64,000 nt of DNA from Methanomassiliicoccales archaeon. Its GTDB lineage: Archaea; Thermoplasmatota; Thermoplasmata; Methanomassiliicoccales; UBA472. Position 1 is the first letter of the stretch, and the number at the start of each line of letters is the position of its first letter. This document shows, piece by piece, positions 890-4,873 of this stretch. A model generated the notes under the pieces. The model made no database searches and was not told the DNA's origin. It saw nothing but the letters and a program-made list of their open reading frames with translations. The translations under genes were made by a program, and so were the position numbers. The stretch is from the NCBI GenBank assembly GCA_035527755.1, contig DATKZX010000019.1:62001-126000 (forward strand), given 5' to 3'.

Positions 890-2785
890 TTAAATTTCGA
901 TCCTGGCTATGATCATATCCAACACGGTGTCGGCGCCAGCTCCCGCATCAACAGCCGGAACATCGGAAGCCTTCAAAAAGTCGGCTGCCTTGGTCAGGTT
1001 GAAGTCGTATAACGGGACATTCGCCGAATAACCGAACATACCCTCCGGGATAGGACCGTTTGGCTGTATGGCGGTGCCCTTCAGACCTGAATCGATGTAC
1101 GTTGCGTAATCGAAGGCATGAGCGAAGGCCAGCCTAACGTTCTTGTCGGCGAAGAAATCCATCGGTACGTTGGTCTTTTCCGGGTTGGGCAGGGCGGTCA
1201 GGTTCAGAGCCTGGTTCAGACCCAGGAAGTCCACGTTGAAGGTACCTATGCCCTGGGTGATGTTGATTCCTGCAACACCCTCGACATCGGCCTTCTGGAA
1301 CCTGGGTATGGCTGCGCAGTCGACGTCTCCAGCCTTCAGCAGCAGGATCCTGGTGGCGGCGTCAGCAACCTGTCGGATGATGACGTTCTTTATAGCTGCG
1401 GGCTCGTCCCAGTATGCGTCGTTGCGGACCATGCTGATATAATCGCTGGACTGCCAATCGACGAACTCGTAGGGACCGGTTCCGCACATGTGGTTATACA
1501 TGTACAGGTAACCATCGTAGCTCATACCTCCGTTCAACTCCACATAGTCCTTGGAAATTACACCGCCAACGTTGTAGGCCATCACGTATAGGAAGGCCGG
1601 GTAGGCGCTGGTCAGGTTGATCTGTATGGTGTAGTCGTCCGATGCCCATATGGCATCATCTATGACATCAGCGGGGATGCCGGGGGTGAAGGTTGAATTA
1701 TCGGCGCTGTAGGAACCCTGGTCATAATCATAGTAGTCGGGTATGGTGACCTGTCCTAACATCCAGACCGGTCCGTGAGGATCGTTCAGCATTAGCGCGC
1801 GGGCCAGGCTGTACTTCACGTCCTCGGAGGTCATATCGGTACCGTCGTGGAACACCACATCTTCCTTCAGATGGAAGATGTATTGAAGACCATCGGCGGA
1901 GATACCGCCGTTATCAACGGTAGGAACCTCAGTTGCTAGAACCGGTATAAGCTCGGATGCGGAGGTACCGTTGTAGAAGATCAAGTTCTCGTAGACGTTC
2001 TGCATGATCTCTCCACCGGCGGTCTCGTAGCCTACAGCGGGGTCCAAGCTCTCTGGGTTACCATCTATGGTGGCCATGACGAAAGTGTCCCCATCGTAGC
2101 TTGATGGGGCTCCAGCTGGAGCAACATCTGGCTTATCGAATGAGTTGTATATCAGACCGGATTGCATGGGGTTGAAATAATAGCCGCTGATCCAAGACCT
2201 CTCAGCATGGAACTGGGTCGCTTGAGCGGTCCAAATGAAGACGCAATCCTCGTACATGTCCATCTCCATATCTTCGTATGCTGCGGCCCTATCAGTAGTA
2301 TTCAGAATAGACTGAGCCTCGACGATCATGGTATCCAGCGTGCTGTTGAAGTATCCTATCATGCTGGCATATGTTCCAGATGAATGATAGAAAGGCTGGA
2401 CATAGTTATCGGGGTCAGCGTAGTCGGGGGCCCATCCAAGGAACATGGCAGGCATGGCTCCGTTCTTCCTGAGCTCAAGGTACTGGGCCCACTCGACTCC
2501 GGTAGCGGTTATCTCGATCTTACCGGGGTTCAAGGACTCAAGCCCCTGCTTCATTAATTGGCAGGCTAAGGCCCTGACGTCGTTCCCTGAGTTATAGAAT
2601 AGTTCAAGTTTAAAGCCCTTATCCAACCAGTTCGTAGCCTCTGGTTCGGGCTCTTCATCTCCACCCATCAGCAACACGGCACCCACGGCGGCGACAACTA
2701 GTACAGCCACTACAATAATGGCTATTAACTTGATGTTCATGCCACCCTTGGCCGCGGCCTCAGGTTTGATTTCACTTCCTTCCAT
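890..2785 (-). CDS. Family-5 extracellular solute-binding protein, apparently circularly permuted
   Basis: 631 residues from an ATG at 2785, chosen because GGAGG lies 7 nt upstream; a TTG two codons earlier sits on the ribosome-binding site. Residues 18-39 form one membrane anchor. Residues 54-218 (with LELFYNSGND and LGWAPDYADPDNYVQPF) match the C-terminal lobe of DppA/OppA-type proteins. After a Pro/Ala linker, residues 232-631 match the N-terminal and middle parts (TIDGNPESLDP, FHLKEDVVFHDGT, CGTGPYEF). The protein ends at YDFNLTKAADFLKAS, exactly where the family normally runs on into the segment found here at the front. The order of parts is therefore permuted. It should bind peptides or related solutes outside the membrane for the adjacent permease. 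Family assignment is firm; the permutation could also reflect a recombined tandem pair or an assembly error. Confidence 0.9.
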   Translation of the reverse strand: MEGSEIKPEAAAKGGMNIKLIAIIVVAVLVVAAVGAVLLMGGDEEPEPEATNWLDKGFKLELFYNSGNDVRALACQLMKQGLESLNPGKIEITATGVEWAQYLELRKNGAMPAMFLGWAPDYADPDNYVQPFYHSSGTYASMIGYFNSTLDTMIVEAQSILNTTDRAAAYEDMEMDMYEDCVFIWTAQATQFHAERSWISGYYFNPMQSGLIYNSFDKPDVAPAGAPSSYDGDTFVMATIDGNPESLDPAVGYETAGGEIMQNVYENLIFYNGTSASELIPVLATEVPTVDNGGISADGLQYIFHLKEDVVFHDGTDMTSEDVKYSLARALMLNDPHGPVWMLGQVTIPDYYDYDQGSYSADNSTFTPGIPADVIDDAIWASDDYTIQINLTSAYPAFLYVMAYNVGGVISKDYVELNGGMSYDGYLYMYNHMCGTGPYEFVDWQSSDYISMVRNDAYWDEPAAIKNVIIRQVADAATRILLLKAGDVDCAAIPRFQKADVEGVAGINITQGIGTFNVDFLGLNQALNLTALPNPEKTNVPMDFFADKNVRLAFAHAFDYATYIDSGLKGTAIQPNGPIPEGMFGYSANVPLYDFNLTKAADFLKASDVPAVDAGAGADTVLDMIIARIEI

Positions 2786-3077: not shown

Positions 3078-3713
3078 TTAAAAATCGTTGATCAGTTTTT
3101 TCGCCCACATCAGTTTTTTCTTCTTTATGAAGAGGTCACTACCTTCCTTGGGAAAAGGCCGATCAAAATCCCAACCTATCATTCGAATGTTCTCGACCCC
3201 GAAATGACGGGCGATCATGTAAGCCCGGTCACCATCGGTGAATCCTCCAAAATTATATACAACGCCAAAAGGCTGGCATTGAACCGTTGGAATAACAGGG
3301 CCTTTCAATATCGGTACATAACGTTCGATCGATTCAATATTGTCCGCATGAGCGTGCACAAAGATGAGCGCTCCCTTCGAACTAGCCTCGATCTCATATT
3401 GCACGTCGCCATCTAGATCGGAAACAATGATATCTGGCAAGATCCCCTGTCGCACCATTCTTCCCGTGGCCGAGCCGGCCGAGATGAGCGTGTCATCAAT
3501 TGACATTCTGCTCAGTTCGTGTTCTAATGATGCCGCCGCTCCACATATCGACACTCGGCTTCCCAAACAATCGACAATCGTACGAAAATTCACTACTTGT
3601 CTGTCCTTAACAAGTTTCGCAAGGACAGTCGCTGACCTCGCATCCGCTCTAGCGTCATATCCGAAATCAGCCAGAATATCAAGGTATATCGGCTTCCAAC
3701 GAGCCCATTCCAT
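3078..3713 (-). CDS. mptE: 6-hydroxymethyl-7,8-dihydropterin pyrophosphokinase, MptE-like (DUF115)
   Basis: 211 residues. The archaeal MptE family transfers pyrophosphate from ATP to 6-hydroxymethyl-dihydropterin on the way to tetrahydromethanopterin or folate-type cofactors. The family signatures are visible: an AGSATGRM glycine-rich stretch, VSDLDGD, HAHADN, and NFGGFTDGDRA, followed by IGWDFD. The acidic residues in DLDGD and DGDRA are the likely metal ligands. It starts 3 nt after the stop of the DUF373 gene on the same strand, so the two are probably cotranscribed. The presence of MptE is compatible with either a methanogen or a non-methanogen archaeon. Confidence 0.85.
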   Translation of the reverse strand: MEWARWKPIYLDILADFGYDARADARSATVLAKLVKDRQVVNFRTIVDCLGSRVSICGAAASLEHELSRMSIDDTLISAGSATGRMVRQGILPDIIVSDLDGDVQYEIEASSKGALIFVHAHADNIESIERYVPILKGPVIPTVQCQPFGVVYNFGGFTDGDRAYMIARHFGVENIRMIGWDFDRPFPKEGSDLFIKKKKLMWAKKLINDF

Positions 3714-3715
3714 TC

Positions 3716-4873
3716 TTAAGCCTCAGGATACTGTTGAGGCTCGATCTCCCCCTCAACCTCAGGTGAGAGCTTGCGCGCGTATCCTTTGAGGTTCAAGTTA
3801 ATGAGGCCGCTGAAACCCCCCAATAGGAATCCGATCATCACTTGCAGAAATATGACGTATTCCCCGTAATTAGGGTATCCGAAGATAAGGGTCGCCAGGT
3901 CAAATGACGCTTGAAGAATGAAGGCGATAGCGAACAGGCTGGTGCTGACTATCAGACTTGTGCTGTATATCTTGCCGAACGAGAGATAATGGTTGATGAA
4001 CTTTCCTGTCTGGTAGGAGAAGAAGGCGAAAACCCACATCCAAAGGAGGATGCTTGATGTTTTCAATAGTAGGGATAGGGTGCTTGACTCAGTATCCCTT
4101 GTTAGCGAGTCCCAGGCAAAAAATATGCCTGCGAAGAACAAGATGGCCGCCATAATGGCGAAGGGGATCATCTGACTTCCGTTCATGACCCCTTCTGTAA
4201 AGCGCCTGAAAGAACTATCGATCCGTTCCGCCAACTTATATGCAAAAGATATCAGGTATATTCCAAGCACGAGGCTGATCATGCCCCATGCCATGCTCGC
4301 TACAATTTGAATATTGGCGTTCTGCTGCATTAGTTCGATGAACTGAGGCACTAGGTTGAAAAAACCAAGAACTGTCAGGACCAATCCCAGCGGGGTGAAG
4401 ACCCGTTTCCTCATCTTATCGTCCTGCAGCATCTTCATGATGATGTAGTAGGTTCCTTCCACGGTCGGAGCCTGTTTTACCCAGACACGACGAACGGAAT
4501 CGACCTTGACCCTTGAGAACACCATGGGATAGATGAACTCGTCCTCCGCTCCATCGCTGACCAGGACGACACGGTCCGGTTTGACGACCTCCAGGACGTT
4601 CTCCAATTGCGTGGTGAGGACCAGGTCCGATTCGTAACCGACCTTCACGTCCCCGCAGATCGTAGCGATCTCTACGTCCTCGCCTTTCTTCAGCATCTCA
4701 TCGTACATGCCTAGAGCGGCCAGGACCGTGTTGACATCACTATCCTCGGCGTCCTTGAGACCCAATGCCATAACGGCATTGATGTTCTCCTCTCGACCAA
4801 TGAAGGGGCTGTTTAGCCCAGCTTTCTTACCAAAATCGTCGTCCCGATCGACGCTGAGGATCAGTACCTTCAT
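3716..4873 (-). CDS. DUF373 family membrane protein
   Basis: 385 residues. The N-terminal 140 residues form a soluble alpha/beta part (MKVLILSVDRDDDFG, VTLVSDGAEDE-like segment VVLVSDGAEDEF) typical of the archaeal DUF373 family. The rest contains about six hydrophobic helices, starting near residue 160 (LGLVLTVLGFF). The function of DUF373 is unknown. It is followed at once by mptE. Upstream it is divergent from the zinc-ribbon gene at 5018, with 144 nt between them holding both promoters. Confidence 0.8.
   Translation of the reverse strand: MKVLILSVDRDDDFGKKAGLNSPFIGREENINAVMALGLKDAEDSDVNTVLAALGMYDEMLKKGEDVEIATICGDVKVGYESDLVLTTQLENVLEVVKPDRVVLVSDGAEDEFIYPMVFSRVKVDSVRRVWVKQAPTVEGTYYIIMKMLQDDKMRKRVFTPLGLVLTVLGFFNLVPQFIELMQQNANIQIVASMAWGMISLVLGIYLISFAYKLAERIDSSFRRFTEGVMNGSQMIPFAIMAAILFFAGIFFAWDSLTRDTESSTLSLLLKTSSILLWMWVFAFFSYQTGKFINHYLSFGKIYSTSLIVSTSLFAIAFILQASFDLATLIFGYPNYGEYVIFLQVMIGFLLGGFSGLINLNLKGYARKLSPEVEGEIEPQQYPEA

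Follow-up and report, generated by a model that had tools for sequence, protein, structure and literature searches.

Evidence for a natural circular permutation in a membrane-tethered family-5 substrate-binding protein of Methanomassiliicoccales

A 64,000-nucleotide stretch of Methanomassiliicoccales DNA (hereafter the window) carries, at positions 890 to 2,785 of its minus strand, an ATG-initiated ORF for a 631-residue protein. Very probably this is the membrane-tethered receptor of a DppABCDF-type peptide importer, a cluster-C substrate-binding protein (SBP) whose chain has been circularly permuted. An earlier note on this DNA had proposed such a permutation, and the proposal is borne out by the same order in independent assemblies, by purifying selection on both segments, by a confident single-chain predicted fold and by syntenic orthologues of canonical order. 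Together these lines of evidence support a natural, conserved permutation and not an assembly error.

Results

Segment layout of the protein

All window features described here lie on the minus strand. The protein begins with a membrane anchor (residues 1-51; positions 2633 to 2785), delimited by alignment and by a helix in the AlphaFold2 model; this helix places the transmembrane segment at about residues 18-39 (positions 2669-2734). By alignment the anchor is homologous to that of canonical-order relatives. The canonical C-terminal segment follows at residues 52-218 (positions 2132 to 2632), with its GWAPDYADPDNY motif at residues 117-128. A linker at residues 219-233 (positions 2087 to 2131; PDVAPAGAPSSYDGD), recognized by junction comparison and alignment, joins the old C-terminus to the old N-terminus. 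The canonical N-terminal two thirds then occupy residues 234-610 (positions 956 to 2086), which hold profile positions 1-282 of the family. The chain closes with an extra tail, residues 611-631 (positions 893 to 955; ending in DAGAGADTVLDMIIARIEI), which has no counterpart in canonical-order relatives and is modelled with low confidence.

Three kinds of search placed the C-terminal part before the N-terminal part, in agreement with the segment swap that had been claimed. The Pfam family SBP_bac_5 matched the protein in two stretches, the larger of which sets profile positions 1-282 on residues 278-613. A genome-wide SBP_bac_5 search found profile positions 288-366 upstream of positions 1-282 in the same frame. 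When the protein was compared by phmmer with solved structures, each half matched the part expected of it: residues ~241-610 corresponded to the N-terminal two thirds of DppA, HbpA and GbpA, and residues ~89-213 to their C-terminal part, such as 383-503 of 3m8u. The best sequence matches in the structure database were 6ofq (Helicobacter pylori DppA), 3tpa, 3m8u and 1dpp. The protein scores 231.8 bits against SBP_bac_5 (PF00496), for which the curated cut-off is 32.4, and no other SBP_bac_5 protein is encoded in its genome. Its segments do not follow the canonical N-to-C order, since the C part lies at residues 52-218 and the N part at 234-610; judged from its sequence, it is a permuted variant of the family and not a plain member. 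Every part of the family is present, so the protein is not a truncated form, as the earlier note had also held. That note had the right layout, with limits of 54-218 and 232-631 that we correct to ~52-218 and ~234-610; its view that the protein ends exactly at the cut does not hold, as a tail of ~21 residues follows.

The locus and its canonical-order orthologues

The permuted gene is the first of a complete dppABCDF operon, with dppB, dppC, dppD and dppF directly downstream. The start of dppB lies at positions 1 to 797 of the window, and the operon runs on beyond the window into dppC, dppD and dppF, assigned from the ORFs of the locus (L043) and from Pfam matches to BPD_transp_1 and oligo_HPY. 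BPD_transp_1 was found in the first permease, and ABC_tran with oligo_HPY in the last ATPase. The locus has the gene order of Dpp/Opp-type systems, that is, an SBP, two permeases and two ATPases. Upstream lie genes for an MptE-like 6-hydroxymethylpterin diphosphokinase (positions 3078 to 3713), which adjoins permuted and canonical genes alike, and for a DUF373 membrane protein (positions 3716 to 4873). Both served as markers of synteny.

Orthologues of canonical order, without extra domains, occupy the same locus between the same neighbours in four assemblies (G005, G006, G041 and G050). More widely, the canonical Methanomassiliicoccales DppA orthologues (L009, L011, L040, L041 and PKD-bearing forms such as L013) share this locus, its MptE-like/DUF373 and dppB neighbours and the same kind of anchor, and their N and C segments are ~40-60% identical to those of the window protein. 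They differ from it in their N-then-C order and, for most of them, in two PKD domains between anchor and SBP. Neither the permuted clade nor its nearest canonical relatives carry these two domains. Since the canonical orthologues stand beside the same genes, the permutation took place in situ, the anchor staying N-terminal.

Other arrangements were seen among these loci. The canonical DppA with two PKD domains, exemplified by L013 (808 aa), is found at many Methanomassiliicoccales dpp loci. A 2080-aa protein in G023 (L053; contig C33, 2714-8953, minus strand) combines a canonical SBP_bac_5 part with fn3, beta-helix/NosD and Ig-like domains. Contig C109 of G089, a genome assigned to family f2, bears a dpp operon fragment (L054) whose closest relatives are the permuted genes of genus g1; the dpp system is otherwise missing from the f2 genomes searched, and the fragment is probably a binning contaminant.

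The permuted order in related genomes

A whole-protein search recovered the permuted order as one HSP in G001 (91% identity), G003, G004, G013 (49%), G043, G047, G048 and G049. Eight further Methanomassiliicoccales assemblies therefore hold it as a single open ORF at 49-91% identity, and in a ninth (G009) the permuted gene is split over two contig ends. The public names of three of these relatives are SPCU01000001.1 (Methanomassiliicoccus sp.), UBA472 and UBA345. In the complete relatives the linker frame is open and the tail is in frame, and the contigs bearing permuted genes reach 328 kb. The earlier note, which had suggested a search for the same order in related genomes, did not foresee that the order is shared by about ten genomes and has changed more than once.

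Between the window gene and its G001 counterpart, dN/dS (Nei-Gojobori) is 0.28 overall, 0.20 in the C segment and 0.34 in the N segment, and two other, more divergent permuted pairs gave 0.16-0.22 by the same method. These values are well below 1 and indicate that both segments are under purifying selection.

These results bear on whether the order could be a misassembly or could reflect two tandem normal-order genes collapsed into one. Most of the genomes are fragmented assemblies of the MAG type and the G009 instance is broken within the gene, as would suit such an artefact, and one permuted gene from another family (L075 of family f18, described below) is known from a single genome. However, the order, the cut point and the in-frame linker and tail are common to independent assemblies at 49-91% identity, purifying selection extends across the gene, and each genome has a single copy at this locus. 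For the main clade the independent assemblies refute an artefact, which we consider extremely improbable. Normal-order genes at the same locus in relatives, which the earlier note had named as evidence against a permutation, do occur in the four assemblies given above. Since the permuted order is retained in about ten genomes, these relatives point to a derived permutation and not to an artefact, and the permutation claim stands.

A related concern is that parts of two tandem paralogues were fused and that the product degenerated and lost its receptor function. Tandem duplication with deletion is indeed the simplest general route to a permutation. Yet both segments are complete and conserved, with the low dN/dS values reported above, the gene is the sole SBP_bac_5 gene of its genome at the head of an intact operon, and the N and C segments occupy the same position in the phylogeny. 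We regard a degenerate fusion as very unlikely. A chimera of distant paralogues is ruled out, because the trees of the N and C segments agree on the clade to which the permuted proteins belong.

Besides its permuted gene, G013 carries a second copy, of canonical order and as a partial frame, elsewhere in the genome (L052, contig C5).

Predicted fold

AlphaFold2, given 50 aligned rows, modelled the window protein as a single chain with a pLDDT of 89.8 and a pTM of 0.82; the earlier note had proposed a structure prediction as a check. Confidence is low only in the region of the N-terminal anchor and over the final ~20 residues. The canonical orthologue L009 gave a pLDDT of 87.6 and a pTM of 0.84. 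By DSSP, the secondary structure of permuted residues 53-196 matches residues 432-575 of L009, and that of residues 234-605 matches residues 51-423, so that each helix and strand of one model has its partner in the other, at one of two nearly constant offsets.

With Foldseek the canonical L009 model could be aligned over its whole length to solved SBPs (3m8u, 573 columns, TMt 0.85), whereas the permuted model aligned with known SBPs over only ~400 columns (6ofq, TMt 0.52). The shorter alignment is as expected when a sequential aligner meets a permuted fold. Taken together, the models suggest that the permuted chain most likely adopts the two-lobe cluster-C fold of its canonical relatives, the pLDDT, the pTM and the matching secondary structure pointing to contacts between its C and N segments. 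The same contacts could in principle form in a domain-swapped dimer, with the C segment of one chain on the N segment of another, but the linkers of L036-L038, as short as ~9 residues, agree with a join within one chain.

In OppA and DppA the canonical N- and C-termini are both part of lobe I, and the position of the cut falls in the other lobe (domain III of OppA). The anchor of a permuted protein would therefore hold it by the opposite lobe.

Permuted SBPs elsewhere in Thermoplasmata

A class-wide search revealed a second permuted family in f27/f28, with matches in 13 genomes that are near full-length in 10 of them. These proteins (L076-L085 and L119/L122) and one from family f18 (L075) share with the window protein both the cut point and the architecture of anchor, C segment, linker, N segment and tail, but are only ~26-34% identical to it. 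The f27/f28 loci are separate dpp operons, with dpp-like permease genes downstream and, where the contig allows, FEN1 upstream. In sampled genomes of other classes of the phylum no permuted SBPs were found. One f28 gene (L119 and L122, on contig C115 of G207) is split into two frames covering query residues 1-256 and 268-565, which suggests a frameshift or a sequencing error.

The f18 protein of G282 is, segment by segment, 86-88% identical to L086, a canonical protein of a sister species, and the two genes have in common an upstream flank with a divergent SBP gene. Neither the tail DNA of L075 nor the DNA downstream of it is matched beside L086, and comparison of the L075/L086 junctions yielded no repeat and no clear trace of a breakpoint. 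In G282 the gene is followed by one resembling a MATE efflux pump, and dppBCDF lie on another contig with no SBP gene in front.

Grouping of L075 with the window clade was rejected (AU p=2e-5), as was its grouping with f27 (p=0.018); f27 and the window clade as one group were not rejected (p=0.085). A single origin of all permuted proteins is thus rejected by the AU tests. L075 is clearly a separate permutation event, there is good support for two origins, and a third is likely.

The tails were also compared. In f27 most tails close with (E/H/D)L(V/I)ARD and a single further residue; the tail of L008 contains ELIARD. Scored with an f27 position matrix against shuffles, L008 (p<0.0005), L085 (0.0045) and L005 (0.0065) stood out, and the window's own tail and L036-L039 scored at or near chance. 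In two pairs the tail has a high dN/dS and evolves fast. As a general hallmark of permuted proteins the 'LIARD' tail is thus only partly supported, being strong in f27, L008 and L005 and near chance elsewhere, and a common functional tail is unproven.

Evolutionary history within Methanomassiliicoccales

SBP trees were built with the segments restored to canonical order, and an independent tree was built from DppBCDF. In both, the G041 and G050 genes, though canonical in order, are nested within the permuted group, and monophyly of all permuted Methanomassiliicoccales genes was rejected (AU p=5e-4 for SBP, 8e-7 for DppBCDF). Since both trees reject a single permuted clade, the segment order has changed more than once. 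Genera g14 and g18 each hold both orders. The parsimony minimum is 2 steps (SBP tree) or 3 (DppBCDF tree) if change is reversible, and 4 if only gains are allowed.

Two histories could account for this pattern. The permuted order may have arisen a single time, in the PKD-free clade of Methanomassiliicoccales, and have reverted to the canonical one at least once (in G041/G050 and perhaps in G005/G006); we give this a little less than an even chance. The lower step counts under reversibility and the presence of both orders within g14 and g18 speak for it. So does canonical L040, which ends in '...DLDKPDTLDEE' and whose N segment starts with 'YDPDVF', resembling the two halves of a permuted linker ('...DKPDTAPAGAPAGYDGDTF'), although this resemblance is short. 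Reversion saves just one or two steps over repeated gain, however, and the deep nodes of the clade are poorly supported (22-57).

The order may equally have arisen by independent permutations at the same loop, four in Methanomassiliicoccales plus that of f18 and perhaps that of f27, if the loop tolerates new termini and the anchor gains from the change of lobe. This history we likewise place just short of even. The closeness of permuted L075 to its syntenic canonical counterpart argues for it, as do the rejected groupings of L075 and the rejected monophyly of the Methanomassiliicoccales genes. Against it stand the f27 and window clades, which could form one group, and the 'ELIARD'-like motif shared by some tails (L008 and f27), which could mean common ancestry. 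A broader proposal, that segment order is switchable in Thermoplasmata, with one cut point used several times independently and also undone, and that moving the tether between lobes is adaptive, is tentative, and we would put it somewhat below an even chance.

Discussion

The best-supported reading of these results is a working DppA-type receptor with altered tethering. In this protein the anchor leads directly into the canonical C segment, a short linker fuses the old termini ahead of the canonical N segment, and a short new tail ends the chain. The anchor would no longer be attached to the lobe with both canonical termini but to the other one, the new anchor point being the exposed loop after the 'KAxxYLKxAx' helix. 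Ligand would presumably be bound in the same cleft, and the receptor would dock on the same permease.

As to the ligand, D121 of the GWAPDYADPD motif is invariant in 20 of 20 permuted proteins aligned and aligns with an Asp of DppA. We take the corresponding Asp of DppA and OppA to be the residue that holds the ligand's amino group or terminus. Conservation of the GWxxDYxDPD motif gives a hint that the ligand has a free amino group, and with its Asp kept in all 20 proteins peptides are the likely ligands.

Under the standard model, the permuted gene may have arisen when the sequence was duplicated internally and the outer pieces, the N segment of the first copy and the C segment of the second, were then lost. 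This model fits a gene whose anchor was retained and whose termini were fused; no duplication intermediates were seen.

As a rule, natural circular permutations are deduced by comparing distant relatives. In the present case the two orders, permuted and canonical, occur at the same locus in the same genera, once at 86-88% identity, so the route, cost and reversibility of a permutation are directly open to study. Additionally, cluster-C SBPs, a large receptor family, appear to accept new termini at one particular loop, a property of use in the design of biosensors. Annotation pipelines overlook permuted SBPs because each half matches the same family.

The cluster-C/family-5 SBPs (DppA, OppA, HbpA/GbpA and NikA/NikZ; PF00496) share with the window protein the same two segments, the motifs GWxxDYxDPD and ESLDPA, and dppBCDF partners. 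Compared with them the window protein has its segment order reversed, so that the anchor stands beside the normally last segment, and it adds a linker, a C-terminal tail and the N-terminal membrane anchor.

The earlier note knew of no described permuted member. For family 5/cluster C our searches of the open literature likewise found none; in cluster B permuted SBPs are already known, and the closest precedent, also the only natural permuted SBP that these searches found, is Tp0684 (TpMglB-2) of Treponema pallidum. This membrane-tethered SBP of an ABC importer is naturally circularly permuted and is assigned to 'Cluster Bc' (PMC4990184). Its crystal structure showed a bilobed fold that binds glucose and closes, with a fourth hinge crossing gained and a swapped part that matches poorly, and its authors proposed that tethering may favour the permuted topology (PMC4990184). 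By the lobe reasoning given above, the number of lobe crossings would be unchanged in the window protein, unlike in Tp0684. Nor is the window protein of the Cluster Bc type, a cluster-B fold permuted in the N lobe, as its listed sequence and Foldseek matches are to family 5 and its cut point lies elsewhere. The more surprising part of our results is the recurrence of permutation at one cut point and the mixture of orders within genera.

Tp0684 and the window protein are thus alike as naturally permuted, membrane-tethered SBPs of ABC importers. They differ in that Tp0684 is a bacterial sugar receptor of cluster B with another cut point, and the two permutations are not homologous as events. The permuted, tethered proteins described here appear to agree with the tethering idea drawn from Tp0684, without proving it, and add to it an independent case from the archaea.
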